From NCBI RefSeq assembly GCF_016406145.1, contig NZ_CP066306.1, positions 5,710,422-5,774,421 on the forward strand: a DNA stretch of 64,000 nt. Reading direction: 5' to 3'. This stretch comes from Pseudomonas putida (GTDB taxonomy: Bacteria > Pseudomonadota > Gammaproteobacteria > Pseudomonadales > Pseudomonadaceae). The notes under the pieces were generated by a model. It did not search any database, had not been told where the DNA came from, and saw only the letters and a list, made by a program, of their open reading frames with translations. Made by a program: the position numbers and the translations under genes. How positions within the stretch are numbered: position 1 is the first letter of the stretch; each line of letters opens with the position of its first letter. Positions 24,932-45,372 of the stretch are shown piece by piece.

Positions 24932-24957
24932 GGAAAGACCCGCTTAAAAGGCTAGAA

Positions 24958-24988: not shown

Positions 24989-25109
24989 CGCCTTTGGCGT
25001 CGGGGTCAGGAAGGTGAGTTGGCCGGACGGTTACGGTCGTGGCTTGGCATAGTCAGTCCAGGCGTTAGGAAGCTGGGCTGCACTGTGCTGGCAGTCCTGC
25101 ACTCCTGGC

Positions 25110-25303: not shown

Positions 25304-25316
25304 GATGAACTCACCA

Positions 25317-27400: not shown

Positions 27401-27565
27401 CTGCTCTCATCCACGCGGAGTGCATCTCCAGTTTGCAGGAAAAAAGACGCCCAACCAGAAGCTGACGGAAAAGTAATGTCGCGATCAGTTTTCTGACAGC
27501 ACCGCGAGGCTAATTTGACCCTGTACCTGACGCCATGAGGCGCAGAACCCACTGAGGATCTCCAG

Positions 27566-27772: not shown

Positions 27773-27779
27773 TCCGAGC

Positions 27780-27793
27780 TTACAGAAATGTAA
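27780..27793. promoter_or_regulatory. Probable CopR box upstream of copA
   Basis: TTACAGAAATGTAA is an inverted repeat (TTACA-N4-TGTAA) in the 180-bp gap before copA. The same arms and spacing occur at 33284-33297 upstream of the DUF2790 gene. OmpR-type regulators of copper and zinc systems bind sites of this kind. Confidence 0.6.
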
Positions 27794-27953
27794 TCACTCC
27801 GGAATCTGAACTATGGCAGTTTCAGACTACGGCCTCTCATCAGCCTCGCGCAGTAGCGAAAGTCTACGAGACTGGTGAGAGCTCCAACGAACCCAAGGGC
27901 TGCGCCATCGAGCAGCCTGGATATCAGCGATCTACCTGACTGGACGCAACGGC

Positions 27954-29771
27954 ATGCAAAGCAAAACCACGAGACGATCATTCGTCAAAGGCCTGGCCGC
28001 TACCGGACTTCTGGGTGGGCTCGGCATGTGGCGCGCGCCGGTCTGGGCTGTGACCAGCCCTGGCCAACCGAACGTGCTCAGCGGCAATGAATTCGACCTG
28101 TATATCGGTGAACTGCCCGTCAACATTACGGGGGCAGCTCGTACGGCCATGGCCATCAACGGCTCCGTGCCTGGGCCGATCCTGCGATGGCGCGAAGGCG
28201 ACACCGTGACGCTGCGTGTACGCAACCGGTTGAAACAGGACACCTCCATTCACTGGCACGGCATAATCCTGCCCGCCAATATGGACGGTGTGCCGGGCTT
28301 GAGCTTTCACGGCATCGCTCCCGATGGCATGTACGAATACAAGTTCAAGGTCCACCAGAACGGCACTTACTGGTATCACAGCCACTCAGGCCTCCAAGAG
28401 CAGTCTGGGGTCTATGGCGCACTGGTGATCGATGCTAAGGATCCCGAGCCGTTTGTATATGACCGCGATTACGTCGTCATGCTCAGCGATTGGACGGATG
28501 AGGACCCGGCGCGGGTGCTCTCCAAACTCAAGAAGCAGTCCGACTATTACAACTTCCACAAGCGCACGGTCAGCGACTTCGTTGACGACGTGAGCGAGAA
28601 AGGCTGGTCGGCCGCTGTAGCGGATCGGAAGATGTGGGCTGAAATGAAGATGAGCCCCACCGACCTCGCAGATGTGAGCGGGTATACCTACACCTACCTC
28701 ATGAACGGCCAAGCTCCGAACGGCAACTGGACGGGTATCTTCAAGCCCGGCGAGAAGATCCGCCTGCGATTCATCAACGGCTCGGCCATGACCTATTTCG
28801 ATGTCCGGATTCCTGGGCTCAAGATGACGGTTGTGGCTGCCGACGGCCAGTACGTCAAACCCGTATCGGTCGATGAGTTCCGGATCGCCGTTGCTGAAAC
28901 CTACGATGTCATCGTCGAGCCTGAAAACGAACAGGCCTATACGATTTTCGCGCAATCCATGGACCGTACCGGGTATTCCCGAGGCACCCTGGCAGTTCGC
29001 GAAGGCTTGCAAGCGCCCGTACCGGCGGTAGATCCACGCCCGATCATCGCCATGAGCGATATGGGCATGGACCACGGCAGCATGGGCGGAATGGATCATG
29101 GCAGCATGGCTGGCATGGACCAGGGCAGCATGGCCGGCATGGATCACAGCAAGATGGCTGGAATGGACCACGGCAGCATGGCCGGTATGGACCACAGCAA
29201 GATGACTGGGATGGGCAATGAAGGCATGGCCGGCATGAGCGGCGCAATGCAAAGCCATCCGGCTTCCGAGACCAACAACCCACTGGTCGATATGCAGACT
29301 ATGTCGCCAACGCCAAAGCTGAACGATCCGGGAATTGGCCTACGCAACAACGGGCGTCGAGTGCTGACGTACGCCGATCTGCGGAGCACCTTCATCGATC
29401 CCGATGGTCGAGAGCCTGGACGGACAATCGAACTGCACCTTACCGGCCACATGGAGAAGTTCGCGTGGTCGTTCGACGGTATCAAATTCTCCGACGCTGA
29501 ACCGCTGCGGTTGAAATATGGCGAGCGTCTTCGCATCACCTTGGTCAACGACACCATGATGACTCACCCCATCCACCTCCACGGTATGTGGAGTGATCTG
29601 GAGGACGAGAACGGCAACTTCATGGTTCGCAAGCACACCATCGACATGCCACCTGGCTCAAAACGAAGCTATCGCGTCACCGCAGATGCCTTGGGACGTT
29701 GGGCCTATCACTGTCACCTACTGTTCCACATGGAAATGGGCATGTTCCGAGAAGTACGTGTGGACGAATGA
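27954..29771 (+). CDS. copA: Multicopper oxidase CopA, periplasmic copper resistance
   Basis: A 605-residue CopA-type oxidase with a twin-arginine signal (TTRRSFVKGLAATGLLGG). The copper-site motifs are HWHGIILP and YWYHSHSGLQ in the N-terminal domain, and HPIHLHGMW and YHCHLLFHMEMGMF in the C-terminal domain. Between them (about residues 363-430) is a Met/His-rich insert made of repeated MDHGSM and MDHSKM units, thought to bind copper. It probably oxidises Cu(I) to Cu(II) in the periplasm. It is the first large gene of copA-peptide-copB-cytochrome-copG. Confidence 0.96.
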   Translation: MQSKTTRRSFVKGLAATGLLGGLGMWRAPVWAVTSPGQPNVLSGNEFDLYIGELPVNITGAARTAMAINGSVPGPILRWREGDTVTLRVRNRLKQDTSIHWHGIILPANMDGVPGLSFHGIAPDGMYEYKFKVHQNGTYWYHSHSGLQEQSGVYGALVIDAKDPEPFVYDRDYVVMLSDWTDEDPARVLSKLKKQSDYYNFHKRTVSDFVDDVSEKGWSAAVADRKMWAEMKMSPTDLADVSGYTYTYLMNGQAPNGNWTGIFKPGEKIRLRFINGSAMTYFDVRIPGLKMTVVAADGQYVKPVSVDEFRIAVAETYDVIVEPENEQAYTIFAQSMDRTGYSRGTLAVREGLQAPVPAVDPRPIIAMSDMGMDHGSMGGMDHGSMAGMDQGSMAGMDHSKMAGMDHGSMAGMDHSKMTGMGNEGMAGMSGAMQSHPASETNNPLVDMQTMSPTPKLNDPGIGLRNNGRRVLTYADLRSTFIDPDGREPGRTIELHLTGHMEKFAWSFDGIKFSDAEPLRLKYGERLRITLVNDTMMTHPIHLHGMWSDLEDENGNFMVRKHTIDMPPGSKRSYRVTADALGRWAYHCHLLFHMEMGMFREVRVDE

Positions 29772-29785
29772 ACTGGAGATTTGAG

Positions 29786-30109
29786 ATGAGCAAACCAATG
29801 AAACGAAGCGCCTTTTTCCTTTCTGCTGCGATGGTAGGCATTCTGGCTGTTTATGCCCCGTCGTCGTGGTCCAGCGACAATCATGATCAGCATTCCCAGA
29901 AAACCACAGAGGCCGGCAAAGCCAAAGGCTCGCAGGACAAGCAGGGCCAGGGGATGAACCATGAAGGCATGGACCATGGTTCCATGGAAGGTATGGACCA
30001 CGGCTCGATGAAGGGAATGGACCATGGCTCGATGGAAGGCATGGACCACGACAAAATGATGAAATCGCATGGCAGCGACAAAGCTAAGGCAGGGAAAGAT
30101 GGCCAATAG
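29786..30109 (+). CDS. Small secreted Met/His-rich copper-binding protein
   Basis: A 107-residue protein with an N-terminal signal peptide ([20 protein letters not shown], cut near WSS) and a tail of repeats: [32 protein letters not shown]. The ATG at 29786 follows GGAGATTTGAG, 14 bp after the copA stop. It shares its repeats with CopA and CopB and overlaps copB by 11 bp. It probably stores copper in the periplasm (inference). Confidence 0.85.
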
Positions 30110-31214
30110 CCTCGGGCGGCCTTCGCTGCTGGCTCTGACCGTTTCGATCAGCATGCTGGGCGTAACGCCCAGCTTCGCTGCTGAAGAAATGGATCACTCG
30201 GGCATGGATCATTCGAAAATGGGGCACGGCTCCATGCAAATGGATGCTGCTCCATCCGAATCGATGCCGGCGATGGATCACAGCAAGATGGGGATGGGCA
30301 AACAGCAGAAAAAGCCTGCCCCTGTTGATCACAGCCAGATGGGGCATGCTCAAAGCAAGAGTAAATCCAGCCCGGTGGACCACAACAAGATGGACCACAG
30401 CAAAATGAACCATGGAAACATGCAGGGCATGGATCACGGCTCTATGAAGGGCATGGACCATTCCCAGATGAACCATAGCTCAGCGACTTCTCCGACCACG
30501 ACGAGCCGCACGCCGATTCCAGTGCTCACTGATGCGGATCGCGAGTCGGCCTTTCCGCCCCTGGGTGGCCACCAAGTGCACGACAGCGGAATCAACAGCT
30601 TCTTCCTGTTGGACCAGCTCGAATACCAGGACGCCGATGAGGGCAGCACCCTGGCCTGGGACGCATCAGGCTGGATAGGCGGCGACATTAATCGCCTCTG
30701 GGTTCGTTCGGAAGGCGAGCGCACCAATGGGGTAACCGAAGATGCTGAGCTGCAACTCCTGTACGGGCGCTCGGTCAGCCCTTGGTGGGATGTGGTCGCC
30801 GGGGTCCGCCAGGATTTCAAACCGGAATCCCCACAGACCTGGGCAGCCTTTGGTATTCAGGGCATGGCTCTGTATGACTTCGAGGCCGAAGCCACGGCGT
30901 TTATAGGCGAGAACGGTCAGACTGCTGCGCGTCTTGAGGGCGAATACGACATCCTGCTGACCAATCGCTTGATTTTGCAGCCCACGGCCGAGGTCAATTT
31001 CTATGGCAAGAACGATCCTGAGCGCGGCGTTGGCTCGGGCCTTGCCAATACCGAAGTCGGGCTGCGCCTACGGTATGAAATTGTCCGCCAGTTTGCTCCA
31101 TACATAGGCGTTACCTGGAGCCGCTCCTACGGCAACACCGCTGACTTCATCCGAGACGAGGGTGGAGATGTTGATGAGGCACGCTTCGTTGCCGGTATCC
31201 GGATGTGGTTCTGA
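30099..31214 (+). CDS. copB: Outer-membrane copper resistance protein CopB
   Basis: A 371-residue protein: signal peptide (to about residue 28, PSFAAEE), a Met/His-rich region (about 29-140: [16 protein letters not shown] and others), and the C-terminal CopB outer-membrane beta-barrel domain ([40 protein letters not shown]), ending in Phe (RMWF). It lies downstream of copA as in all Pseudomonas cop operons. Confidence 0.95.
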
Positions 31215-31224
31215 GAATTCCAAC

Positions 31225-32007
31225 ATGAAAAAAACAATTACAACGCTGCTTGGGGCCGGTGCTGTCGGAAGTGCTGCGGTATTGGGCACAGCCTATTTCG
31301 GTCTGGTGAATGTCGGCGCTGATGATCCTCACTTCCCGGCAGTCCATTCCTTTCTCGCCATGGCTCGTGATCGGTCTATTGAGGTTCGAGCGCGAGACAT
31401 CGAAGTCCCTGATCTGAAGGAAGCCGCGTTGATCAAAGCGGGGGCGGGCAACTACAACGCCATGTGTATAGGCTGTCACCTTGCCCCTGGCGTTGGGAAG
31501 ACTGAGCTAAGCCAAGCGCTATACCCGTCGCCACCCGACCTCACCAAGGTGGGTGTCGGAGGCGATCCAGCCGCCGCATTCTGGACAATCAAGCACGGTA
31601 TCAAAGCCACGGGCATGCCCGCCTGGGGCAAGAGCATGGGCGATGAGTACATCTGGGGAATCGTCGCGTTCCTGGATCAACTGCCCCAGATGAATGCCGA
31701 GCAGTACAAGGCCTTGGTGGCCACGAGCGGCGGCCACCAGCACGGCGGCGGTGAAAGCGATATGCACAACCATGAGGGCCAGCACGGCGGGAGCGGTCGT
31801 GCCGAGCATGGTGATCACGATGAAGCGGCAGACGACGATCATGCCCAGGCAGCTCACGACCATGGAGCTGCACCCGCAGGCTCCGCTCAAGCGGCAGATC
31901 ATCACGGTGACCACAATGCGGCCGAGGCCCATTCGGATGCCCACCCGACATCGTCGCCAAAGACGCATGTTCACAAAGACGGTAAGGAGCACACTCATGC
32001 CAACTAA
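31225..32007 (+). CDS. Periplasmic cytochrome c with His-rich tail
   Basis: A 260-residue protein with an N-terminal membrane/signal segment (LLGAGAVGSAAVLGTAYFGL), one c-type haem site CIGCH at about residues 80-84, and a candidate axial Met in KATGMPAWGKSMG. The last about 80 residues are His-rich (HQHGGGESDMHNHEGQHGG; HTHAN end), which suggests metal binding. Such cytochromes accompany copAB in Pseudomonas and may accept electrons from Cu(I) oxidation (inference). Confidence 0.88.
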   Translation: MKKTITTLLGAGAVGSAAVLGTAYFGLVNVGADDPHFPAVHSFLAMARDRSIEVRARDIEVPDLKEAALIKAGAGNYNAMCIGCHLAPGVGKTELSQALYPSPPDLTKVGVGGDPAAAFWTIKHGIKATGMPAWGKSMGDEYIWGIVAFLDQLPQMNAEQYKALVATSGGHQHGGGESDMHNHEGQHGGSGRAEHGDHDEAADDDHAQAAHDHGAAPAGSAQAADHHGDHNAAEAHSDAHPTSSPKTHVHKDGKEHTHAN

Positions 32008-32452
32008 CCGGATATTCGTTCGGCTAGCCGCTATCGCTGGGCTTCTGGTGACCTCGGCGGCCTATGCTGCCGAGCCATTGTCCATCGACGTTCACCGAGA
32101 CGCGAACTGCGGTTGCTGCAAGAAGTGGATCGCGCACCTGGAAGCCAATGGTTTCAAAGTGACCGACCATGTTGAGACGGACATGAGCGCAGTGAAACAG
32201 AAGCTGGGCGTATCGCCACGGTTAGCGTCCTGCCACACAGCTGTGATCGACGGAAAGTTTGTTGAAGGTCACGTGCCAGCTGAGCAGATTCGAGAACTCA
32301 GGGGGCGGAACGATCTAGTCGGGATCGCCGTACCAGGAATGCCAGCTGGGTCCCCAGGCATGGAGGTTGATGGCGTAAGCCATGCCTACCAAGTCATTGG
32401 TTTAATCAAAAGCGGCGAGGACCAAGTAGTCGCCAACTATCCAGCCAAATAA
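31997..32452 (+). CDS. copG: DUF411 copper-binding protein, CopG-like
   Basis: A 151-residue protein with a signal peptide (to AYAAE, about residue 25) and the DUF411 domain: DANCGCCKKWIAHLEANGF, SCHTAVIDGKFVEGHVPA and GSPGMEVDG. The CxCC motif and the later SCH match CopG proteins that bind a Cu cluster and are proposed to work on the redox state of copper in the periplasm. It overlaps the cytochrome gene by 11 bp. The symbol is given by analogy with Pseudomonas/Vibrio CopG. Confidence 0.88.
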   Translation: MPTNRIFVRLAAIAGLLVTSAAYAAEPLSIDVHRDANCGCCKKWIAHLEANGFKVTDHVETDMSAVKQKLGVSPRLASCHTAVIDGKFVEGHVPAEQIRELRGRNDLVGIAVPGMPAGSPGMEVDGVSHAYQVIGLIKSGEDQVVANYPAK

Positions 32453-33361: not shown

Positions 33362-33748
33362 CTACTGGTAGACACCCAAGCGTATACGCTCAAGATAGTC
33401 CGCTACGACGCTGAACCCGAGCGACGTGTCGAGCATCTCGAAGGGTACAAACCCCAACAAACGGCCGCACGGCCGACAAAGCCACTGCTCCGCGAGCATC
33501 TGAGAGCCAAATACCTTCGATGCAAGCTCCAGTCCTTTCGCATACTGGAACGCCACCGCGCTCTGCTGGGCATCCAGACGATGGGCCTGAGCGGGATGGC
33601 TCAGACGGTGAATGCTTCTGGTCGATCTTCCTGTGATTCGCCCGACGAGGTTACGAGCCTTGAACAGGCTCGATGACTCGACCATGCACTTCACGTCGCT
33701 GAAAAAGAATCCTGTTTGGACTAGACTCAGGAGCTCCAGCTGGCTCAA
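33362..33748 (-). CDS. Xre/MbcA/ParS-type antitoxin-like protein, apparently without toxin
   Basis: About 128 residues from a TTG at 33748 that overlaps the stop of a small upstream gene (TTGA). The C-terminal half matches the ParS toxin-binding domain: ASKVFGSQMLAEQWLCRPCG, GFVPFEMLDTSLG and YLERIRLGVYQ. In working pairs the RES-domain toxin starts right at the antitoxin stop. Here the downstream minus-strand sequence (33250-33360) gives only a short frame (MRRGGNATSFYMRD) and then the DUF2790 promoter, so the toxin appears to be lost. Confidence 0.72.
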   Translation of the reverse strand: MSQLELLSLVQTGFFFSDVKCMVESSSLFKARNLVGRITGRSTRSIHRLSHPAQAHRLDAQQSAVAFQYAKGLELASKVFGSQMLAEQWLCRPCGRLLGFVPFEMLDTSLGFSVVADYLERIRLGVYQ

Positions 33749-33918: not shown

Positions 33919-34669
33919 AAAAGGGTCCTAGGCGTGAAAGTAATGCGACGATAGTATCGGTTTGCTAAACACTCCACAAAAGGGCCCTGTGGACAGCGAA
34001 ATACAGGCAGATCCTGTCAGTTGCCCGGACCCACTCACGGCCTGGTTTTGGCTTTTTGGCCGAAAAGGCTGTTGCTTAAATTGCAGAGCGATTATTAGCC
34101 TTTTAGACGCCAATGGTCCAACCAAAGCACTCTCGGTTGATCGGAAAACCAAGCGTAGAAAACTAGTGCCGCATGCTGCTAGCTGCCTCTCGCCAGCGTC
34201 TTCTACCGGCCCAGGCTGTGTAAAACCTTGACCAGTGCTAATGTTATTCTGCCGTCGGCAGTCATAGCGGAGTAGTCCATGAGGCCATTCCTCCAAGGCA
34301 AGCATCGAGATTAATGCACGTTGCGGCCTGAGAGCCTGGATGATTATGTCGCAGATACTAACTAGGTTCGAGTAATCGATGTGCTCGACGATGAGCTTGA
34401 TCTCACCCGTTGGGCTTCAGTGGTGTGGTTCTCACCGAAACTGGACGCCCTGCGTACCCTGCTGCACTGCTGAAGATCAACATCTATGGCTATCTCAACC
34501 ATCTTTCCGTCAGCATTGGGATGAGCTTGGTTCCGACCAGCTCCGGAAAATAGCTTTGGGGACTCCTTGGAAAATGAGGTCATAAATGGCCTGGGCTAGC
34601 GAACGGGAGCTTTGCTTCTCGCAGGTTTGGGGGCATGCTGTGAGCGAAACGTGGCAGGAGGAATGCGCC
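33919..34669. other. Long stretch without a recognised gene
   Basis: About 750 bp. Open frames such as 33928-34305 (minus) and 33962-34231 (plus) overlap each other, have unusual composition and resemble no family I know. The stretch presumably holds the promoter of the gene at 34670 and decayed mobile DNA. Confidence 0.5.
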
Positions 34670-35071
34670 ATGAACCAGGGGACACTCCAGACAGCGGTAC
34701 TGTCGGCCGCCGAACTGATCGACTACCTGTGTCCTACGAGCGGGGCGCCTTATTCGGTCGAGCGCTATGCCGAGATCTTTGGCCTCAGCCCTACCGAGTT
34801 TGCCGGTCAGATCGCTGCCTATCGTCACAGCAAACCAGATGCTACCAGCGCATCCGACGCCGAAGCGACGCAACGCTTTATCGCGGATGTCTTGCGGGTG
34901 ATCTTGGCCCTAGACGAGAGCGGAGTCGCCGTCGAACGGGCGATCACTTGGTTTCGACTCGAGCCGTTACCGACCTTCGAACAGCAGACCGCGGAGCAAC
35001 TGGTCAGTCAGGTTCAAGTTGAACGAGTGCTGCAGTTCCTAGCCTCCTGGCAGGCGGGGAGCCAGGGATGA
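34670..35071 (+). CDS. Possible MbcA/ParS-like antitoxin
   Basis: About 133 residues; ATG 34670 follows AGGAGGA with good spacing, although the frame is open further upstream. The N-terminal part looks helical and could bind DNA (SVERYAEIFGLSPTEFAGQI). The C-terminal part (ERAITWFRLEPLPTFEQQTA, then VERVLQFLASWQAGSQG) resembles the C-terminal toxin-binding domain of the Xre/MbcA/ParS family. It overlaps the next gene by 4 bp (ATGA), a common arrangement for two-gene toxin-antitoxin operons. The assignment is tentative. Confidence 0.55.
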   Translation: MNQGTLQTAVLSAAELIDYLCPTSGAPYSVERYAEIFGLSPTEFAGQIAAYRHSKPDATSASDAEATQRFIADVLRVILALDESGVAVERAITWFRLEPLPTFEQQTAEQLVSQVQVERVLQFLASWQAGSQG

Positions 35072-35397
35072 ATCGGGATACCCAATGGCAGGTCGATCAT
35101 CAATCGGCATACCAGTCCTGTTATTGCACTGTCCTGCACACCGTAGATGCGCGTTACGACGTTCGCGGTTCTGTGCTGGCAGAAATGGTGAAGGCCTGTC
35201 TGATTCACCGCGCCACACTGCCCGCAGCGCAGCGGGCCTATTTCGTACAGCACGCATCAGAGGAAGCGGTGACCTACTTGGAAAAGTTCACAGCCAGGCT
35301 GTTTTTTGGCCCCCAGGGACGCTTTTCGCCGCAAGAGTATCGCTACCGGCCTGCTATAGATTTGCTGGAACCGGCTCCTCATGGTCAGCCTCAATGA
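35068..35397 (+). CDS. Unrecognised protein, partner of the upstream antitoxin-like gene
   Basis: A 109-residue soluble protein without signal peptide or membrane segment. Notable parts: SAYQSCYCTVLHTVDARYDV and YLEKFTARLFFGPQGRFS. Its ATG overlaps the upstream stop, so the two are translationally coupled. I do not recognise the family. If the upstream gene is an antitoxin this would be the candidate toxin, but there is no direct sign of RES, NYN or other toxin folds. Confidence 0.55.
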   Translation: MNRDTQWQVDHQSAYQSCYCTVLHTVDARYDVRGSVLAEMVKACLIHRATLPAAQRAYFVQHASEEAVTYLEKFTARLFFGPQGRFSPQEYRYRPAIDLLEPAPHGQPQ

Positions 35398-35440: not shown

Positions 35441-36352
35441 CTAGAGGTCCCAAGCATTCTCGGCGAGTAAAAAATCTTTGACGTAGTCGCGCTGCTTTGA
35501 AAGAGTGGAGCGGTTTAGAGCCCAGCCGAGATGAGCGCTGACAAACTCGCCCTGAGTCTCGTCGAAGTAATAAGCCGTGCGCGCCTTCGCCAAGGAATAC
35601 AGATTGATCAGCCGAGCACGTACGTGCGGCTTGAGATGATCATAGACGACAACGTTGGGGTTATTGGAGAATACTAAAGCTTTACCTGGCGAGATGGCGA
35701 TGATGAACAACAGGTCCCTCAAATAGTCTCCCCAGCGAGATGCGGGGTAATCAGATGCGAGCAAGCCCGGTTGTTCCCAATTGTACTCCCGCATGGTTGC
35801 CTTCAAGAGTCCATCTGAAAATGCCTCGTCAATAAACGGCGAAATCTCGTTCTGGGCGAATAGGACTAACGACATCGCACCGAGGGACTTGCTTGATTTA
35901 AAATAGTCAACCACTTCATTGATCGAAGTATGTGATGAGATCTGCTCATCCTTCATATTTTGCCTAATAAGATCGAGTTCCGAGCGGATATCCATGGCTT
36001 TTAGAATGTCGGGATGGCGAGCCTCCAGAAACGTCAGGGTGTTCGCCAGTTGTCGGCGGTCCAGATGGTTCCAACCCTGAACTCTACTGCTACGTGCCTT
36101 TTCGATGATCTTATGGCCCGCTTCATCAATCATCGGGGTAATATGGCTGGATTCGACCTCAAATCCCCCATCGGGAAAGTCGATACGGTACAAGTCCTCA
36201 ATCGAAGCAGTATGTTTTATAGCAACCGGCTTGATTTCCAGCGCACCATTCGAAGGCAGTCGGCGGTAGCGGAAGACTCTCCCAGGAGCGTATTGCCAAG
36301 CCTTGAGAAAGTGTTGTGGAACGAAATGGTGATTGCGAGGGGGATTCGGCAT
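35441..36352 (-). CDS. DUF4238 protein
   Basis: A 303-residue protein whose start NPPRNHHFVPQHFLKAW is the signature of DUF4238. Further conserved parts: GHKIIEKARSSRVQGWNH and SPGKALVFSNNPNVVVYDHL. The family is of unknown function, is scattered on mobile elements and is sometimes found among defence genes. It is divergent from the second TniQ gene with only 36 bp between the start codons, so the two share a promoter region inside the transposon. Confidence 0.8.
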   Translation of the reverse strand: MPNPPRNHHFVPQHFLKAWQYAPGRVFRYRRLPSNGALEIKPVAIKHTASIEDLYRIDFPDGGFEVESSHITPMIDEAGHKIIEKARSSRVQGWNHLDRRQLANTLTFLEARHPDILKAMDIRSELDLIRQNMKDEQISSHTSINEVVDYFKSSKSLGAMSLVLFAQNEISPFIDEAFSDGLLKATMREYNWEQPGLLASDYPASRWGDYLRDLLFIIAISPGKALVFSNNPNVVVYDHLKPHVRARLINLYSLAKARTAYYFDETQGEFVSAHLGWALNRSTLSKQRDYVKDFLLAENAWDL

Positions 36353-36388: not shown

Positions 36389-37312
36389 ATGAAGATTTTC
36401 ACACCATTACCTGGAGAATATGTGGCGTCGGCACTGCAGCGGGGAAACGAGATGCTCGGTATCCGAACCCTGCCACATGAGGATTTCCGGATAAGACCGA
36501 TACCAAGAACAGGTTACGGACGCAAAGGAATTGGGGGAAAAGCGGAAATTAGGGGGTACGCAATTTTTAAATTTCCCTCCTTATTTACTGAACGAAAAAT
36601 CACGGAAGAGGTTTTGCACAACCACACCCTGTACCCTCTCACCGCAGCGCTAGGCCGACCTACAAACCAAACAATAGTAACCCCCGCTTATTGGAAAAAA
36701 ATTTGCCCCGAATGCGCATTCGAGGACTTTGAGAATCACGGCACAGCGTACGTACATCGAAGCCATGTACAGTCTTATGTTAAGGTTTGTAGCATCCATG
36801 GTTCTGACCTCATAACTATCTGCCCCGCATGTTCAACCCCCATTAATAAGCATAAAATAACCCAACTAGGAATATGCAGTCAAAAATACAAAAACCCGAC
36901 ACGTCAATGGAAATCACCGAACCATCTGTATTCAATATTTATCGCAGAACTTCTGAACTACAAAGGCCCTCCAGCTAAAACGCACAACGCTGAATGGATA
37001 GTGACCAAAAGCTTATACAAAAATTATTTCGATGAAATATACGGCAATTATGGATACGTGTCTGAAATTATAGTGCGTGAGCTCGGCACAAAAACTATAA
37101 ATCCCTATTCAAAGGGGGCGACTGATTACAACTTCGTAATTCAAGCCTTCCTAGGCTGTCGCACCGCTGCCAGATACCTAGACTTGCTAACAAACAGTGC
37201 CGCGTGCACTCAGTTGCAAAACGAAGTTAATGAACTTATTCGGTCTGACTTCATCAAACGCAAATATCATACAGTAGATAGAATACCTAGTACCTCCTCA
37301 TCAGTTACATGA
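36389..37312 (+). CDS. Second TniQ-family protein, convergent with tnsD
   Basis: A 307-residue protein. Its start MKIFTPLPGEYVASALQRGN matches the opening of TniQ/TnsD proteins (compare QPFPDESLYSLAVRYHR in tnsD). A Cys/His zinc-binding segment follows at about residues 107-160: KKICPECAFEDFENHGTAYV, then CSIHGSDLITICPACS. TniQ proteins choose the target in Tn7-like elements. The gene is visibly AT-rich compared with tnsABCD, it lies on the opposite strand, and its last 46 bp overlap the tnsD end. ATG 36389 is chosen from the conserved N-terminus; the upstream open frame is a shadow of the DUF4238 gene. Confidence 0.85.
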   Translation: MKIFTPLPGEYVASALQRGNEMLGIRTLPHEDFRIRPIPRTGYGRKGIGGKAEIRGYAIFKFPSLFTERKITEEVLHNHTLYPLTAALGRPTNQTIVTPAYWKKICPECAFEDFENHGTAYVHRSHVQSYVKVCSIHGSDLITICPACSTPINKHKITQLGICSQKYKNPTRQWKSPNHLYSIFIAELLNYKGPPAKTHNAEWIVTKSLYKNYFDEIYGNYGYVSEIIVRELGTKTINPYSKGATDYNFVIQAFLGCRTAARYLDLLTNSAACTQLQNEVNELIRSDFIKRKYHTVDRIPSTSSSVT

Positions 37313-38736
37313 GACAGCCGAATCCCAGCAAGCCGGTACACAACACTTATAGCACTTCGCTCAGATAGAAGATAATGTCTCACCGCCCATCTGATTTTAC
37401 GAACTTGATGGTCATGATCAGATTCGAGAATATCTTTCATCAACAAAGTACTTATTGGGAACTTATCAGGTACCCTCAAAAAATCATGGCTACGAGCGAC
37501 CTTCCTGCTTAACGCGGCGCGGGTCACCTTTTTCGGTTTGCCCTGCGTAGACAGAATCTGGTCCCTGGCGATTAGCAGATCTTGAGCAAGCGCTGCGTCT
37601 CTCGCATGCCAATCGACCAACCCCCTCCTTACCCTTATGAAAGGATGGGCAGACACATACTGCGCTAACCACTCCTTATCATGGCGGTAAAGCCACTGAT
37701 AGCCCGGCTTATCATGGCATTTCGCGTTCTTGCTGCTCGAGAAAGCTTCGCGGCGTGCCTCAATTTCGCCGTCCTCTATGAGGGGCCTAGTATCGTTGCC
37801 CCTAGCCGCTTCACCGCTGCGAGCATCAGCTCGCGGGTGAAAGGATTTGAGGTGCTCAAGGTCTGCCTCAAGGAGCCAGCAAAGAAAGTAGAATTTTAAT
37901 GGCTGTACGACCGCCCCGCGTGGACGCACGACGCCCAACACCCAGTCCCAAGAGCAACTGAGCTCCTGGAACTCATTAGCGCGAGGGCTACAGAGAAGAC
38001 GCGGCGTCAGGAAGCTCCTTAATACCTGTTCCCTCACCCGACCAGCCTTAAGAAACCCCATCTCATCCAGACGATGCTGAAGGAAGTTTCCGGTCAGCAG
38101 ATTTTGTACATCCGCTGGGTGCTCAAGTCCCCAAAACTGCATTTCACCTATCACAGCAGCTGAAGAGTCAGGAGCCCGCATCACTGGCGACCCCGCTGCC
38201 TCCGCCGGAAACAGCATGCAACGCCAGTCAGTTCCATCCGGAAACATCGTCCCGCAGAGCACCTCTCCATGGAGCGGGCAGATGCAAGTACCCATTGCTT
38301 GGTGAATACGATGCCAGTAGGCCGAGCCGCAGTTTTGAATATCTTCTTCAACACACCTCTCGCAGTACCTGAACGACGCGTGCTTGAGGAAGCCTGAGGC
38401 TGTGAGACCCAGGCTCATTTTCAGGCCCGTGCCGTCGGTACCAGTCATGGCGATACGCGCGGCTTTGCTCTTCGTGTCATTCAAAAAAGGTTCGTACAGA
38501 GGCAAAAGGGTAAAGCGATCGATCAAATGCTCTACCGAATAAGCTGATGCTAACCGTTGCGACAGAGCACCCAAGCAGCACGGCAGGATAGAGCCACAGG
38601 TTCTGGAATACGCGCCGAACAACTCCTGGCTTGTCCGGCGATAGCTGTCGTTCGACGACAGCCTATGATAACGGACCGCCAGGCTGTAGAGAGACTCATC
38701 AGGGAACGGCTGAGGAAACCAATGCAAGCGATCCAT
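37267..38736 (-). CDS. tnsD: TnsD (TniQ family), attTn7 target-selection protein
   Basis: A 489-residue protein with the TniQ start (HWFPQPFPDESLYSLAVRYH), a zinc-finger segment (YCERCVEEDIQNCGSAYWH, then CICPLHGEVLC) and a long C-terminal half rich in basic residues. Tn7 TnsD (508 residues) binds the end of glmS and directs insertion just downstream; the position of this element at glmS agrees with that role. It is the last gene of the tnsABCD order, 24 bp after tnsC. Confidence 0.93.
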   Translation of the reverse strand: MDRLHWFPQPFPDESLYSLAVRYHRLSSNDSYRRTSQELFGAYSRTCGSILPCCLGALSQRLASAYSVEHLIDRFTLLPLYEPFLNDTKSKAARIAMTGTDGTGLKMSLGLTASGFLKHASFRYCERCVEEDIQNCGSAYWHRIHQAMGTCICPLHGEVLCGTMFPDGTDWRCMLFPAEAAGSPVMRAPDSSAAVIGEMQFWGLEHPADVQNLLTGNFLQHRLDEMGFLKAGRVREQVLRSFLTPRLLCSPRANEFQELSCSWDWVLGVVRPRGAVVQPLKFYFLCWLLEADLEHLKSFHPRADARSGEAARGNDTRPLIEDGEIEARREAFSSSKNAKCHDKPGYQWLYRHDKEWLAQYVSAHPFIRVRRGLVDWHARDAALAQDLLIARDQILSTQGKPKKVTRAALSRKVARSHDFLRVPDKFPISTLLMKDILESDHDHQVRKIRWAVRHYLLSERSAISVVYRLAGIRLSHVTDEEVLGILSTV

Positions 38737-38760: not shown

Positions 38761-40209
38761 TCACCAAGCAGAGTCCTTATCTACCCAGCCTCTCTGCTCG
38801 AGCTGGGTCTGCACATCATCGCCTTCGGAGAAATGGGCAGTTGGTGCTGACTCGTTGGCAACCGGAACCACCGGTTTACTAATAGGCTTTGCGGCTGCCC
38901 TTTCACTGTGCTCGACAGGTGTCACTATCGCGGCCTGGGTAATTAAAGAGAGATTCGCCCTGTCTGCACGCCGCGCCAAATCGTAATTCATCATCTTGGC
39001 GACCTGGTCCTTCGTGGGCATCATGTCTTCGAAGTCAGCAATTTGCAGCGGATCCCCGCTTCGTAGAGCCTCGATGGCCTTATGAAGGAGCCTCATCTGA
39101 CTGTCGTACACCTGCTGCAGAACCGCCGGTGTAATCGAGTCGATGCCCTCCCAGATTGCGTGCCGCTGAGCCAGCATTAGAAGTTTGGCCAGGAAATCCG
39201 TGTTTCCTTGAGTGAGGTCATATATTTTGGAAAGGATCTCACCCGTCAACGGAGTGGGGGTTTTGGTCCAGTCGTATGCCCAGAGCAGTGAAACCAGATG
39301 CGCCCAAAACGGATCATCTTCGGTAAACCTGTCAAAAGTGATAGGCCCCATTCCTGCCGCACGCCGAGCATTTCGCAAAACACCAGAAAACAGCGGAAGC
39401 ATGGCATTTGTGCCAACGTAGATCAGCGGGATGCCGGCGTCATTCGACAGCTGCACAAAAAAGTTGAGAAGCTTTTCGCGGTCTTGCCCGCCTCGGGATG
39501 AGCAGAGGTGCTGCATCTCATCAATTATGAGAGCTCCGATGAAATAGGTTTTGCACAACTGACTGATATTTTGAAGCATCACGCTGATGCTGCGGCCAGT
39601 AGCAGCTCTGCCTGAGTACTTTTTTATGCCTAATGCTTCATCCAATGAAGAGAAGAATGCGGTACAAAAACCTCGCAACGAGCCATCGTGCGGACAATCG
39701 ATCTTGAGCCAGACCACCTGCGTCTCAATGAAGATCTGCTCTTTATACTTACTGTGACTGATCACCTGTGGATAAAGCTTGGCAATGGAGTTCAGCGCAG
39801 TCGTTTTACCCATGCCGCTCAACCCGATCAGTGTCAACGTTTCAGCGGTGGACATAAACCCGTGCCCCTTGATCTCCGCAGAAGAGGGCAAGCGATGCCT
39901 AACGGATGACGCATGCAATGGATTGCGCCCGGTGTATCCGTACCGAATCAATTGACTGAACAGGTCCTCAAGCCTGAGGTGGATTTCAAAAGGTACAACG
40001 ACATCCTTCAGCCTGTTGATGCCATGACCACGTAATTTCGGGTCCAAGGCCCGCTCCACGTTGTCAGGCCGGGGCGGGGCGCTCCCAATGCGCCTGACTA
40101 CATCAACATCCGAAAGAATCTTCGGGAGACACTCAATCAGTGGGTTACCGTCGTATTGAGGCATGCCAGTCGGGTTGTAATCTGCTGGCGCAAAACTGGA
40201 ATCACTCAT
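38761..40209 (-). CDS. tnsC: TnsC, AAA+ transposition regulator
   Basis: A 482-residue ATPase with Walker A GLSGMGKT (residues 129-136) and Walker B ALIIDEMQHL (226-235). TnsC links the target-bound TnsD to the TnsAB transposase and is the regulator of Tn7 transposition. Its start overlaps the tnsB end by 8 bp. It is shorter than Tn7 TnsC (555 residues) but has the complete ATPase core. Confidence 0.95.
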   Translation of the reverse strand: MSDSSFAPADYNPTGMPQYDGNPLIECLPKILSDVDVVRRIGSAPPRPDNVERALDPKLRGHGINRLKDVVVPFEIHLRLEDLFSQLIRYGYTGRNPLHASSVRHRLPSSAEIKGHGFMSTAETLTLIGLSGMGKTTALNSIAKLYPQVISHSKYKEQIFIETQVVWLKIDCPHDGSLRGFCTAFFSSLDEALGIKKYSGRAATGRSISVMLQNISQLCKTYFIGALIIDEMQHLCSSRGGQDREKLLNFFVQLSNDAGIPLIYVGTNAMLPLFSGVLRNARRAAGMGPITFDRFTEDDPFWAHLVSLLWAYDWTKTPTPLTGEILSKIYDLTQGNTDFLAKLLMLAQRHAIWEGIDSITPAVLQQVYDSQMRLLHKAIEALRSGDPLQIADFEDMMPTKDQVAKMMNYDLARRADRANLSLITQAAIVTPVEHSERAAAKPISKPVVPVANESAPTAHFSEGDDVQTQLEQRGWVDKDSAW

Positions 40210-42373
40210 GACTAGCCTCGTTACCCGCGTTGATCACCAATTTCAGGAAGGCGGCGCTCCGACCCGAGACAGGTTTCACGGTTACAGGTGTATAAGTCTC
40301 CTCCGCGGCTGGCGAGTTATCCACAAGGCGAAGCTGATTTAGGTCAGCGGTATGCAAGTCGCGCTCAGTCTGGGTTTCAACGGCACGTTTCGAACGCTTG
40401 TCCCGCTTGAACTCAGCGTCAGATTTCGGATCTCCCTGCCCCTGGCGTTTGGCTTGCGCTCGATGAAGAATCTCCTCCTGGCGGCCTTGAAGAAGCGCTC
40501 CAGTATTGGCATCCTCGTACCGGGCATCTGGGGCGACCTGATTCAAAATCTTGATAATATCGAGGACCTCCTCCATACGAAGCCCACCGTACTTAACCCG
40601 CTGCTGCGGTACAATGGTCAACGGCTCGAAACCCGCCTCAGATTTCATCCAGCAGTTCTCAATAGAGTTTGGATCGTAGAAAACCCTAACGTACCTCGTT
40701 TTAAAGTTGTGAGAGCGCTCCAACCATTCCGAACGAATGGCGGTTTCACAGGTGTACTGCACACCTTGGAAATTTATACCTCCTCGACCAATTCGACACA
40801 CCTGCGAGGGTAACAATGCAATCTTCAGCTCCGCTGGTGATACGAATTTCGAATTCAGGAGATTGTTTGCCATAGACCACTTCCACATGGCCATAGGCGT
40901 GGGCTCCACTTCTGCCGCGATCATCTCACGGTTCAGAAGATGAGGAACTCGAAGGCTCTTGTTGTGAGCCAAAACACCGAGGATTACCATCTCAGTAAAC
41001 TCATCGATATCGAAAATTGCGTCGAGCTGGTAGTCACGATCACCACGCTCCATTTTCCGAGCATCTACGCCGCCAGGGACAAATTTCAAATCCAGCTTTT
41101 CGTTGAGCAGTCGGAAACGGCTTTCAATGATACTTTTCCAGTCAGGCCGAAACGGTGGCAAAATCTTCAAGGCTGTACCAAGAGTCTTTGTCATCGTCTC
41201 CCCAGCTTCACTGAGAAGTTCAGCGCGATCTGCGACGATTTCAACCGGTAGATGAGAACATGGCCAGTCAACCTCATCGATCTCAATATTATAACGCTTG
41301 CAAAACTCCTTCTTCGGCGTGCAAGCATTATAAATGGCATGTCGAGCACCATTCCAACTGGGCCCTTCAAGCCCGACATGAATACCTACGATCATTCTGG
41401 TGAACGTATCAACCAACACATACAGCACTGGCCTGCCGATCAACCATAACCGATTGACTCGATGTACCAAATAAACATCAGCAATCGTCGAATCGATTTC
41501 GTACCGATGACTTGCACCGACTAACCCTTGAGAGGCAGATCCAACTAGCGCACGATGGTCTTTATTATAGCGGATTGCGCCGCCGCTCTTCTTCAACCTA
41601 TAGAGTTCATCAAAGAAAAGTTTTCCATGGTACTCCAGTTGATTGATGGACGGGTAGCTACCTCGAACCAGGTTACCTTTTGAACCGTCGGACTTGATCG
41701 ACCGATAAAACTTATTGAGCATCCAATCATAGGCTTTCTTTAGCTTGCCACACCTGCCACTGGCAAAGCGCCCATAGGCCAAGCGAATATGCGAGATGTG
41801 CCGTGACTCGAGCAGAATTGCGCCACCGTCATCCACAACTACGCCACGATATTTAAGCGGTCGGCCAGGAACAATGCCTGAGGCCCGACTTTTTTTCTTT
41901 CCACGGCCTCCACACGTGCTGGTATTCCACAAAAATGCGTTTCGTGTCTGCCCCATGCTCCAATACCGATAGAGAAGTCGATAAATTTGCTTCCGGTCAA
42001 CTCCCACTACCATTGCGTGATTAGCAACAAGGGAACCAAAGTTAGACGTCAAGATATCGAGGGGGCCATGATTCTCCACCAAACCACGTACCAGCTCCCA
42101 GTTCCTATCTCGGCTGTCTTTTTCATTCTCACTGATCTCGTCGTCACTTCGAAGCAAGTGCATAGGTACCATTTCAGGGTTGATCACCGCCGCTCCGTTA
42201 TTGATCTCTTCGATCAATAGTGAGCTTCCAACCCGCCATGGCTTCGTCGGACTTGTACCGAGTTCAATGACTAAGACAAACTCATCCTTTATAGCTAAAA
42301 CTCTGACCGGTTTCTTCAGCAGCTCAGATCCCTCACCCGGAGAAACGATGCAGTTAACTCCCAGACTAAGCAT
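40202..42373 (-). CDS. tnsB: TnsB, DDE transposase
   Basis: About 723 residues from ATG 42373 (MLSLGVNCIVSP), which overlaps the tnsA stop by 8 bp; the frame extends upstream to 42430. The integrase-like core has Asp in YEIDSTIADVYLV, Asp in EIVADRAELLSE and Glu in DWKSIIESRFRLLNEKLD. TnsB cuts the 3' ends of the transposon, joins them to the target and binds the repeats at both ends. It is close in length to Tn7 TnsB (702). Confidence 0.95.
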   Translation of the reverse strand: MLSLGVNCIVSPGEGSELLKKPVRVLAIKDEFVLVIELGTSPTKPWRVGSSLLIEEINNGAAVINPEMVPMHLLRSDDEISENEKDSRDRNWELVRGLVENHGPLDILTSNFGSLVANHAMVVGVDRKQIYRLLYRYWSMGQTRNAFLWNTSTCGGRGKKKSRASGIVPGRPLKYRGVVVDDGGAILLESRHISHIRLAYGRFASGRCGKLKKAYDWMLNKFYRSIKSDGSKGNLVRGSYPSINQLEYHGKLFFDELYRLKKSGGAIRYNKDHRALVGSASQGLVGASHRYEIDSTIADVYLVHRVNRLWLIGRPVLYVLVDTFTRMIVGIHVGLEGPSWNGARHAIYNACTPKKEFCKRYNIEIDEVDWPCSHLPVEIVADRAELLSEAGETMTKTLGTALKILPPFRPDWKSIIESRFRLLNEKLDLKFVPGGVDARKMERGDRDYQLDAIFDIDEFTEMVILGVLAHNKSLRVPHLLNREMIAAEVEPTPMAMWKWSMANNLLNSKFVSPAELKIALLPSQVCRIGRGGINFQGVQYTCETAIRSEWLERSHNFKTRYVRVFYDPNSIENCWMKSEAGFEPLTIVPQQRVKYGGLRMEEVLDIIKILNQVAPDARYEDANTGALLQGRQEEILHRAQAKRQGQGDPKSDAEFKRDKRSKRAVETQTERDLHTADLNQLRLVDNSPAAEETYTPVTVKPVSGRSAAFLKLVINAGNEASHE

Positions 42374-43265
42374 GACGAGGCACCTCGATTTCTGATGTGC
42401 TGGAAAAGGATGGCTCAGCAATCCAAACATGCAAAGGTTCAGATAAGCTTATTACCTTAGCGCTTAGACTCGCCCCCAGTCTGCCCGTCCAAAGAAGATG
42501 GTGGAAGAGGCGTTTAACACCAATATATTCTATAAAAATTACCCTCGAGGCTTTTTGCAGCAGTGCCTTTAGTGGCAATTCACTAGTCTTACATCCCGCT
42601 ATAAATTCGAGCAGATTATTTATATTATTCTCCGTCGGCAACGAAGGATGGATGACCGCGTAAGTTCTAAGTATGACAAGATTTGCTATTTTAACTTGCG
42701 AGAGATTTTCATGGAGAACCAGTTTCCATTCTACCTTTCTCATAGCCCAATATTTAGCTTCGATCTCAAGCTTTTCCGCCATCCGATTCTGCTCCTTGAG
42801 GCTGGCATCCTCGAACTCCTTACGGTATTTCACAGAGCGCGCGGCCAAGGTTGCTTCGCCCTTCGAATCTATGAAAGTTATGAGGAAGTCAGTGGTCATA
42901 ACCACTGGGACTTGAGTACCTGGATACACAGGATGACGGTAATTCAGGCTTGACGCGATCGCTTGAGTCTCAGCTTGCGTTAGGAGCGGGAACTGCTCAC
43001 GAATGTCGATGATGGAAGGATCATGCTCAAGGATCAGGTGATAGTCGCGCTCAGCGTTGGATAGCAAATGATGACTGCGATGAAATTTCACACCCGGTAC
43101 AAGATGCGACACCCCGCTCGACTGGATATCCCAAATCTTGATCCAAGGCTCATAGGACTCTCTAACGCCAGATCCGCGACCCGATTGTATTCTTCTATCA
43201 ATTTTCCGCTGAGTCATTAGCTTCGAGCTAGCTGGATTCACCGGTTCAGTGGGTACAGATGTCAT
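42366..43265 (-). CDS. tnsA: TnsA, 5'-end nicking endonuclease of the transposase
   Basis: A 299-residue protein. The catalytic residues of the restriction-enzyme-like fold can be placed as Glu72 (NAERDYHLILEHDPSI), Asp126 (VMTTDFLITF) and Lys146 (AARSVKYRKEFED), comparable to Glu63, Asp114 and Lys132 of Tn7 TnsA. It cuts the 5' strands so that the element moves by cut-and-paste rather than replicative transposition. It is first in the tns operon, about 180 bp from the right-end repeats. Confidence 0.95.
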   Translation of the reverse strand: MTSVPTEPVNPASSKLMTQRKIDRRIQSGRGSGVRESYEPWIKIWDIQSSGVSHLVPGVKFHRSHHLLSNAERDYHLILEHDPSIIDIREQFPLLTQAETQAIASSLNYRHPVYPGTQVPVVMTTDFLITFIDSKGEATLAARSVKYRKEFEDASLKEQNRMAEKLEIEAKYWAMRKVEWKLVLHENLSQVKIANLVILRTYAVIHPSLPTENNINNLLEFIAGCKTSELPLKALLQKASRVIFIEYIGVKRLFHHLLWTGRLGASLSAKVISLSEPLHVWIAEPSFSSTSEIEVPRHA

Positions 43266-43405: not shown

Positions 43406-43447
43406 ACAAGGCTCTGCCCCGACAAACGGGCCGTGACAGAGCCTTGT
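43406..43447. repeat. Hairpin between right-end repeats and tnsA
   Basis: Inverted arms ACAAGGCTCTG (43406-43416) and CAGAGCCTTGT (43437-43447) enclose a smaller stem CCCG/CGGG. No T-run follows on either strand. It abuts the innermost TnsB-site-like repeat. It might block read-through from glmS into tnsA or act in transposon-end function; both are inference. Confidence 0.55.
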
Positions 43448-43513
43448 GACAACCTTTCTTAACTTGTGACAACCTTTATTTTTTTGTGACAACCTTTATT
43501 CTTTAAAAACACA
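43445..43513 (-). repeat. Right end of Tn7-like element: three phased TnsB-site-like repeats
   Basis: TGTGACAACCTTTCTT (43445-43460), TGTGACAACCTTTATT (43465-43480) and TGTGACAACCTTTATT (43485-43500) are spaced exactly 20 bp apart. They are the inverted complement of the left-end repeats. The element terminus is read as ACA at 43511-43513. Dense sites at the right end and spread sites at the left end is the Tn7 pattern. Confidence 0.85.
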
Positions 43514-43536
43514 ATTGGCCCCTTAGCCGCCGATGC
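43514..43536. other. attTn7 spacer between glmS stop and transposon
   Basis: The 23 bp between the glmS stop codon and the transposon right terminus. Bases 43514-43518 (ATTGG) are where the target duplication should be, but no direct copy next to the left end was found. Confidence 0.7.
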
Positions 43537-45372
43537 TTATTCCACCGTCACCGACTTCGCCAAGTTACGCGGCTGGTCAACATCAGTGCCTTTGAGCACC
43601 GCCACGTAGTACGACAGCAACTGCAGTGGAATGGTGTACAGGATCGGCGCCAGCGCGTCAGCGATGTGCGGCACCTTGATTACATGGGTACCTTCGCCGT
43701 TGCTCATACCGGCGTGCTCATCGGCGAACACCACCAGCTCACCACCCCGGGCGCGGACTTCCTGCAGGTTCGACTTGAGTTTCTCCAGCAGCTCGTTGTT
43801 CGGCGCTACAGTAACCACCGGCATGTCGTTATCCACAAGCGCCAGCGGGCCATGCTTGAGCTCACCCGCCGGGTACGCTTCAGCGTGGATGTAGGAAATC
43901 TCCTTGAGCTTGAGCGCACCCTCCATCGCAACCGGGTACTGCGCACCACGGCCCAGGAACAGGGTGTGGTGCTTGTCGGCAAACAGCTCGGCGATCTTTT
44001 CGACGGTGTGGTCCATGGCCAGGGCTTCGCCCAGGCGTGCCGGCAGGCGACGCAGCTCTTCGACCAGCTCCCCTTCCACACCAGCCTCGAGGGTGCCACG
44101 CACCTGGCCCAGGGCCAGGGTCAGCAGCATCAGCGATACCAGCTGGGTAGTGAACGCCTTGGTCGATGCCACGCCGATTTCCGGGCCAGCCAGTGTCAGC
44201 AGGGTAAGGTCGGATTCGCGTACCAGCGAGCTGATACCCACGTTGCAGATGGCCAGGCTGCCCAGGAAGCCCAGTTCCTTGGCATTGCGCAGGGCAGCGA
44301 GGGTGTCGGCAGTTTCGCCAGACTGGGAAATCGAAACGAACAGGGTGTCCGGCTGGACCACCACCTTGCGGTAGCGGAACTCACTGGCTACTTCAACTTG
44401 GCAAGGGATACCGGCCAAGCTTTCCAGCCAGTAACGGGCAACCATGCCGGCGTGGTAGCTGGTACCACAGGCCACGATCTGCACGTTGCGCACCTTGGCG
44501 AACAGTTCAGCAGCCTGCGGGCCAAAGGCCTGGACCAGCACATGGTCCTTGCCCAGGCGGCCTTCCAGAGTGCGCTGAACCACGGTCGGCTGCTCGTGAA
44601 TCTCCTTGAGCATGAAGTGGCGGTATGCGCCCTTGTCAGCGGCTTCGGCGCCTTCGTGATACTGCACGGTTTCACGCTGGACTGCGTTGCCGGCCTGATC
44701 CCAGACCTTCACCTGGTCACGGCGGATCTCGGCGATGTCGCCCTCTTCCAGGTACATGAAGCGGTCAGTGACCTGGCGCAGCGCCAACTGGTCGGAGGCC
44801 AGGAAATTCTCACCATGGCCAAGGCCAATCACCAACGGGCTGCCACTGCGCGCGGCAACCAGACGATCGGGTTGTTTCACGCTGATCAGCGCCAGGCCAT
44901 AGGCACCGTGCAGGCGCTTGACCGCTGACTTCAGTGCGTCCGCCAGGTCCGGGATGGTCTTGAGGGTATGGTGGATCAGGTGGACGATAACCTCGGTATC
45001 GGTTTGCGAAACGAACACATAGCCCAGGCCTTTGAGCTCTTCGCGCAGCTCTTCATGGTTTTCGATGATGCCGTTGTGTACCACTGCCACTTCTTCACCC
45101 GAGAAATGCGGGTGCGCATTGCCCTCGGTCGGTGCGCCGTGGGTAGCCCAACGGGTGTGGGCAATGCCCAACTGACCGTTCAGCGGGTCGGCAGCGTTGG
45201 CAGCTTCCAGTTCAGCTACCTTGCCGATGCGGCGTCGGCGCTGCAGTTCACCCTGCTGGGTGTAAACGGCAAGGCCAGCGCTGTCGTAGCCGCGGTACTC
45301 AAGCCGCTTGAGGCCTTCGATGAGAATGGCGGTGATATTGCGTTCGGCTACGGCTCCAACGATTCCACACAT
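43537..45372 (-). CDS. glmS: Glutamine:fructose-6-phosphate aminotransferase GlmS
   Basis: A 611-residue enzyme with the catalytic N-terminal Cys ([12 protein letters not shown]), a glutaminase domain to about residue 240, two SIS sugar-isomerase domains and the conserved C-terminus [13 protein letters not shown]. It makes glucosamine 6-phosphate, the first step toward UDP-GlcNAc for peptidoglycan and LPS. The last codons form the TnsD recognition region of attTn7; the Tn7-like element sits directly downstream. A DeoR-type regulator and glmU lie upstream on the same strand. Confidence 0.98.

Follow-up and report, generated by a model that had tools for sequence, protein, structure and literature searches.

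A Tn7-like transposon of Pseudomonas in which TnsE was not found carries a second TniQ-family protein and occurs both at glmS and on plasmids

A stretch of 64,000 nucleotides from Pseudomonas putida (contig NZ_CP066306.1, positions 5,710,422 to 5,774,421; "the window" below) contains a complete Tn7-like element next to glmS. Besides TnsD, the expected selector of the glmS site, this element encodes a second and shorter TniQ-family protein, which we call TniQ2. Near-identical copies of the element are found at glmS and on a plasmid, and therefore a single transposon lineage naturally inserts into two classes of target: the element family has a second route that does not lead to glmS. The tniQ2 gene is a core gene of this lineage and is under purifying selection. 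We argue that this is a two-pathway transposon in which TnsD directs insertion to glmS and TniQ2, as a second adaptor for TnsC, directs insertion to plasmids. We would put the probability of this reading at roughly 55%.

The element extends from 6938 to 43511 (36,574 bp), with termini that read TGT...ACA. Its right terminus lies 25 bp from the stop codon of glmS, which agrees with an earlier interpretation of this DNA from its letters alone (the sequence-only reading), in which the tnsD-like gene was said to fit an insertion at attTn7. A scan of the window with up to three mismatches gave seven matches to the consensus of the TnsB-type sites, four at the left end and three at the right, as compared to 0.02 expected by shuffling. 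From the glmS end, the order of genes is tnsA, tnsB, tnsC, tnsD, then tniQ2 on the opposite strand, and then metal cargo. What we expect of a Tn7-like element is all present: tnsA, tnsB, and tnsC along with tniQ/tnsD, defined ends with repeated TnsB sites, a 5-bp duplication, and the attTn7 position. The main features are:

6933..6937, no strand: left copy of the target-site duplication, CAATT (read from the sequence)
6949..7105, plus strand: left-end TnsB-type sites with consensus AATAAAGGTTGTCACAA, starting at 6949, 7017, 7071, and 7089 (motif matches)
36389..37312, plus strand: tniQ2, a core-only TniQ protein of 307 amino acids (Pfam, alignment, fold comparison, and tree)
37267..38736, minus strand: tnsD, TniQ domain plus PF15978 C-terminal region, 489 amino acids, the expected glmS selector (Pfam)
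38761..40209, minus strand: tnsC, an AAA ATPase (Pfam AAA_22 and TniB)
40202..42430, minus strand: tnsB, the transposase (position and homology; Pfam gave only a Mu-transpos_C match below the cut-off)
42366..43265, minus strand: tnsA, an endonuclease (Pfam Tn7_TnsA-like_N)
43444..43500, minus strand: three right-end TnsB-type sites with 20-bp spacing (motif matches)
43512..43516, no strand: right copy of the target-site duplication, CAATT (read from the sequence)
43537..45372, minus strand: glmS, outside the element; attTn7 is at its 3' end (open reading frame and homology)

According to the annotation of the copy on pNY5709-IMP, tnsB may start 19 codons further in. The GlmS of the window is 85-97% identical to those of the Pseudomonas loci that we compared.

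The element in the window resembles Tn7, which also inserts just after glmS. The two also share the order tnsABCD (as annotated in R721), TnsB-type repeats at both ends, a 5-bp target-site duplication, and a second route to plasmids. The plasmid route of Tn7 relies on TnsE, which is unrelated to the TniQ family. In contrast, TnsE was not found here, and a second TniQ-family protein is encoded convergently with tnsD instead.

To locate relatives we used TnsB, rather than TniQ2, as the seed. It has matches at E <= 1e-140 in 24 of 398 Pseudomonas genomes, and in 21 of these TnsB is at least 60% identical (the other three are at 46, 37, and 37%). In 17 of the 21, glmS is directly beyond tnsA, and in all 14 of the glmS-resident copies that were measured, the right terminus is 22-26 bp from the glmS stop codon. 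In two more genomes (G149 and G087), glmS is further off, at about 6 and 26 kb respectively, with other insertions or a stacked element in between, and in another (G106) the contig ends inside tnsA. Just one of the 21 chromosomal copies, in genome G038, is shown to lie off glmS. It has both ends and a duplication (AGAGC), its flank shows no clear likeness to glmS (score 8.5, p 0.06), and no glmS was found within the 245 kb that were searched (from 239,159 to the contig end). Its tnsB now has an internal stop codon.

Some other copies looked displaced from glmS and were rejected. L015 and L075 seemed to be two elements at a common non-glmS site, but their common flank reads as the left end of another Tn7-like element, with its own repeats, apparent TGG...CCA termini, and the same duplication, which points to stacking. 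In L075, glmS is about 26 kb further on, and the sequence of L015 ends before any glmS is seen. For the copy in G149 (L064), glmS is likewise near (about 6 kb); its outer right-end sites are gone and, by eye, it lies beside streptomycin resistance genes and a resolvase. Other Tn7-like elements appear in these regions as well. The G038 copy (L057/L097, G038:C11 295269-302000) lies about 85-110 bp from the apparent end of another one, which has repeats AATAAAGTCTGTCGG, a 368-amino-acid TniQ, and, further on, a 547-amino-acid TnsD. Also, L075:12060-20000 and L079/L080 represent another Pseudomonas lineage with two tandem TnsD-type proteins and apparent TGG...CCA termini; it is at glmS in L079 and L080, and it stacks with the element studied here.

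TnsB also matches 104 plasmid records. Identity is at least 60% in four (pNY5709-IMP, pCF39S, pKF715A, and the plasmid of P. veronii 1YdBTEX2), and all four plasmids carry TniQ2. Three of these copies have both ends and exact 5-bp duplications (CTAAC, GCAAG, and GTTCG), and for these three, insertion-free records show the target sequence. For pKF715A, the left end was not found, and two records have in common 70 bp reaching up to the junction. The P. veronii copy has interruptions in both tnsC and tnsD. Over 10,255 bp, the copy on pKF715A and the one at glmS in genome G159 are 99.97% identical, and the pNY5709-IMP copy is 98.4% identical over 8,133 bp to the element in the window. Against the glmS end, the four plasmid flanks score 6.0-8.5, which is no better than shuffles (p 0.17-0.99), while 13 glmS-resident copies (reference excluded) score 40.0-53.5. 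Together with G038, this makes five copies off glmS, four of them with target-site duplications. The sequence-only reading had proposed that the second TniQ may supply an alternative target, an idea that would fall if all related elements, with or without the gene, were only at glmS. Relatives do occur elsewhere (four on plasmids and one chromosomal); that TniQ2 takes them there is the part of the proposal that is still inferred.

What might the plasmid sites have in common? The suggestion that another gene serves as a fixed second site found no support, as no common sequence is found among them. In pairwise comparisons of five flanks (including pXWY and leaving out G038), the lowest of 10 p values was 0.095, so no pair stands out from chance. 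The targets are in unrelated plasmid regions, and one is inside an annotated gene. It is still conceivable that TniQ2 recognizes a specific second site that five copies sample too thinly. For example, the TniQ of the Tn5053 family targets resolution sites, which are abundant on plasmids (PMC11406308), and by eye, a short CGCGTTCCTCCTG stretch recurs in sequences related to the targets on pNY5709 and pKF715A. Given the flanks, we consider a specific site unlikely.

The tniQ2 gene starts with the ATG at 36389 and its 307 codons are part of a longer frame of 432 codons. As first described, the 3' ends of tniQ2 and tnsD overlap by 46 bp (37267-37312). This overlap is not conserved, as a 1-base gap separates the two genes in L016 and L057. 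Its placement in the TniQ family was also correct: TniQ2 passes the Pfam TniQ cut-off, if weakly (30.2 bits versus 27), as tnsD does too, and the profile matches 26 of 30 aligned TniQ2 members, including the protein in the window, at E <= 0.01. Of the two motifs that TniQ2 and TnsD were said to share, the Cys/His segment holds up, with identity at 15 of 38 positions (E = 1e-6 in a single pairwise comparison), while the start motif (FPQPFPDES / FTPLPGEY) is seen by eye only and is not aligned by BLASTP. The gene is indeed AT-rich relative to its neighbours, with 43.8% G+C versus 53.3% for tnsD and 55.6% for the element. Because orthologues in five other elements are AT-rich too (39.7-44.4% G+C), this is a trait of the family and not a sign of recent import.

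Among 5.8 billion proteins searched, 527 candidates were scored, of which 36 are relatives of TniQ2 at E <= 0.001 (35-99% identical); 35 of them have 268-307 amino acids and one has 389. Eight residues are invariant in a 30-row alignment (C106, C109, C134, H137, C145, C148, H155, and C163) and are presumably zinc ligands. The PF15978 C-terminal region is not in TniQ2 at E <= 0.1 nor in any of the 30 members at E <= 0.01, so TniQ2 is a TniQ core without the C-terminal region of TnsD. Its predicted fold matches the solved, TnsC-bound part of Tn7 TnsD, minus the DNA-reading C-terminal region. The fold was also compared with the TniQ of one type I-B transposon associated with clustered regularly interspaced short palindromic repeats (CRISPR), or CAST.

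A core-only protein in this position could be what is left of the element's own TnsD: TniQ2 is 182 codons shorter, and the detectable likeness between them is confined to that 38-residue stretch. But in a tree of 52 N-terminal regions, the 22 TniQ2 rows lie on one side of a branch with support 100/99. On the other side are 23 TnsD rows (with the Tn7 TnsD of R721 and a cyanobacterial TnsD) and seven ungrouped rows (five of them long-branched). Also, TniQ2 keeps two invariant sets of Cys/His residues (C106, C109, C134, and H137, and then C145, C148, H155, and C163), whereas the local TnsD family, aligned in 12 rows, has an invariant counterpart of the first (C125, C128, C153, and H156) and none of the second. 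As the TnsD family keeps only the first set, TniQ2 has more conserved Cys/His residues than TnsD, not fewer. Finally, the ratio of nonsynonymous to synonymous substitution rates (dN/dS) of TniQ2 is well below 1. A decayed TnsD, which the sequence-only reading had named as the outcome of the tree that would count against it, is already contradicted, and we give it almost no credence. An ancient duplication might still account for both TniQ2 and TnsD. One TniQ2 member from another genus (L131) adjoins a distant TnsABCD core and is on the same strand as tnsD, so tniQ2 has either passed from one core to another or been retained for a long time.

All 21 genomes with TnsB at 60% identity or above have a TniQ2 match at E <= 3.1e-30. 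In 19 of them, tniQ2 and tnsD are adjacent and convergent; in G300 some 13 kb separate them, and the tniQ2 of G227 is found on another, small contig. In G087, the reading frame for TniQ2 is missing its N-terminal part. In a set of 18 elements that includes near-copies, the distances between TniQ2 proteins follow those of TnsB (Mantel r 0.91) and TnsC (0.88). The dN/dS of TniQ2 is 0.15-0.34 (Nei-Gojobori; the nine pairs with finite ratios, of 11 compared), and its protein sequence evolves faster than TnsABC. We also noticed a lone relative, 29% identical to TniQ2, in L077 (G214:C1:6637003); the tns proteins of the window have no match in the 40 kb around it (about 9 kb on one side and 31 kb on the other).

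These observations suggest the following mechanism. By analogy with Tn7, TnsD would bind the 3' end of glmS and direct insertion 22-26 bp downstream, which is the position that is observed. TniQ2 would be a second, shorter adaptor, with binding to TnsC predicted from the fold match, and would most likely bring the TnsABC machinery that TnsD uses to plasmids as well, and to other mobile DNA entering the cell. Insertion into plasmids would let the element spread between cells, as TnsE does in Tn7. The few known sites off glmS show no fixed sequence, and the cue on plasmids is likely to be DNA structure or else a host or plasmid protein. We infer this role for TniQ2 from its strict retention, its predicted fold, the natural plasmid insertions, and the lack of a match to TnsE. 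That the element is without TnsE had been claimed from the start, and the TnsE profile (PF18623) has no match in the 21 genomes, although a divergent TnsE could escape it; the profile also has no match in 14 standard control genomes and does match plasmid R721, which holds Tn7. More tentatively, TniQ2 may be a protein-only functional replacement for TnsE. Having no DNA-reading extension, Cas partner, or fixed target sequence, it would direct TnsABC to plasmids and other mobile DNA by sensing either the structure of the DNA or a protein of replication or transfer.

Several points weigh against the two-pathway interpretation. We found no element of the lineage without tniQ2, and because every related element carries it, plasmid insertion cannot be tied to tniQ2. 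The known sites off glmS number just five (four on plasmids and one chromosomal), with no common feature found, and the chromosomal copy in G038 shows that insertion off glmS is not restricted to plasmids. The plasmid copies are from a plasmid database and the glmS copies are from genomes of species, so their frequencies are not comparable. A TnsE too divergent for PF18623 may be present, or the same pattern could come from a TnsD that has become less specific.

The last of these leads to the main rival. TniQ2 might modulate TnsD, either by capping or remodelling the TnsC filament at glmS or by damping transposition, in which case the plasmid insertions would be off-target events of TnsD or TnsABC. 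In favour of this, TniQ2 is a TniQ core that lacks the C-terminal region of TnsD; the plasmid sites have no common motif; and one chromosomal copy is off glmS. Also, in CyCAST, TniQ lowered homing by TnsD, and TnsD lowered RNA-guided insertion (PMC10293859). On the other hand, the 22-26 bp position in 14 of 14 copies implies that TnsD shows little relaxation on chromosomes, an element is shown off glmS in only 1 of 21 sampled genomes, and most published two-route elements assign one route to each TniQ-family protein, according to PMC11406308. We find a modulator rather doubtful.

The sequence-only reading had also raised an RNA-guided route, for which we found no support. As it had noted, no array is visible: there are no CRISPR-like repeat pairs in the elements of the window, pNY5709, G038, or pCF39S (the last in two pieces), and there is no Rfam match in 6900-46000 of the window. 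Nor did we recognize a Cas gene among the element's open reading frames (only Csy4 was searched for by profile). The longest element-target matches on the four plasmids are 10-11 bases, as compared to null means of 11.1-12.3 (the search covered about 47 kb of the element in the case of pCF39S and pKF715A), and the longest at the glmS site of the window is 13 bases (p 0.23). A CRISPR effector or other guide could be supplied in trans by the host, with TniQ2 as its adaptor. CAST TniQs are among the closest profile matches to TniQ2 (PDB; PADLOC TniQ_IB and TniQ_IF), and core-only TniQs serve CASTs (PMC10293859). But Csy4, the one Cas family searched for, is in a single genome among the 21 hosts, where it lies outside the element, some 54 kb past glmS, and by eye, no upstream block is common to all subgroups. 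Along with the absence of repeats and target matches, this makes a guide in trans quite improbable.

Elements with two TniQ-family proteins are of a published kind, and the idea of a second target is a published hypothesis. Faure et al. (2023, PMC10293859) report that dual TniQ-TnsD loci are common (998 of them), with a TnsD of over 400 amino acids and a small TniQ core protein, and the proteins in the window have these sizes (489 and 307). The small TniQ here differs from those loci in that it split from TnsD long ago and is no recent local duplicate, it is convergent with tnsD in 19 of 21 genomes, and natural plasmid insertions are documented. Type I-B1 CASTs such as AvCAST, in which TnsD serves glmS and TniQ serves Cascade, also combine a glmS-targeting TnsD with a core-only TniQ (PMC11406308); unlike them, the window element has no array and no recognized Cas gene. 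CMGI-E of C. metallidurans is described as having two tnsD-type genes and no tnsE, but it is not at attTn7 and carries aromatic-degradation genes (PMC3384475), while most of our copies are at glmS. The same article quotes a proposal by Parks and Peters that one of two TnsD proteins may make non-specific targeting possible. Region 31 of P. putida W619 has a similar order of chr genes, nreB, an insertion sequence, cop genes, and tnsABCD; its description in PMC3056050 mentions tnsABCD and not a second TniQ, and we liken it by gene order only. According to PMC11406308, two TniQ proteins are the usual way to have two pathways, and TnsE is almost universal among elements that target glmS, which makes our lineage an exception. 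Conversely, tnsE is absent from most clades in Benler et al. (2021, PMC8649781), who describe plasmid-borne Tn7-like elements without recognizable TnsE and name unknown plasmid selectors as one possible reason. We found no published account of the Pseudomonas TniQ2 or its plasmid copies in the open-licence literature that was searched; "Pseudomonas" is absent from the main text of Faure et al., whose supplement may hold these loci. What is new is a conserved lineage with natural evidence for two targets.

Beyond these genes, the element carries the following, largely cargo:

7474..32452, no strand: cargo block (open reading frames, Pfam, and partly by eye)
33362..33748, minus strand: Xre/MbcA/ParS-type antitoxin-like gene (relatives seen in compared elements)
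34664..35397, plus strand: two small cargo genes, one of 135 codons and one of 109 (no Pfam match at E <= 0.1)
35441..36352, minus strand: DUF4238 cargo gene, divergent from tniQ2 (Pfam)

Among the compared loci, the DUF4238 gene is present only in the nearest relatives, and 12 of the 27 elements compared have a relative of the antitoxin-like gene just upstream of tniQ2. The block includes chromate genes (a ChrB-like gene and a chromate transporter), a major facilitator superfamily gene, cation efflux, HupE, and sulfate permease genes, and copper genes (multicopper oxidase and CopB, with copRS recognized by eye). An IS66-type insertion of three genes (22670-24931, by eye) has the sulfate permease region on one side and the copper genes on the other. 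Other copies carry other cargo. The copy on pNY5709-IMP has an apparent cyclic-oligonucleotide-based antiphage signalling system (CBASS; SAVED, nucleotidyltransferase, ThiF, and Mov34 by annotation) and also a PDC-S06 defence candidate (L083:34423-39104 and L021:14282-16903), and by annotation the copy on pCF39S (L139:29738 to L084:46661; about 67 kb) has a class 1 integron and several drug-resistance genes between its ends. Also, the genome of the window has two more transposition gene sets. The first, Tn7-like or Tn5053-like, is just past a gyrB-like gene (L009:7254-13000, G000:C1) and has a tnsA-like gene, tnsB, tnsC, and a 638-amino-acid TniQ with HTH_17, and then a second copper gene set. 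The other, near 2.52 Mb (L010:7488-13610, G000:C1), has TnsA-like, TnsB, a TniB-type ATPase, and an 852-amino-acid TniQ with HTH_17.

Numerous small TniQs have no identifiable partner (Faure et al. 2023, PMC10293859). Our lineage brings them together with the TnsE-less plasmid elements in a single, tractable transposon, which has two TniQ-family proteins and of which copies 99.97% identical over 10 kb occur once at glmS and once on a plasmid. If TniQ2 is the plasmid selector, then it would join TnsE, CRISPR effectors, and the res-site TniQ of Tn5053 as a further class of factor that finds plasmids, and it would help to explain how islands of metal and drug resistance move between Pseudomonas cells.
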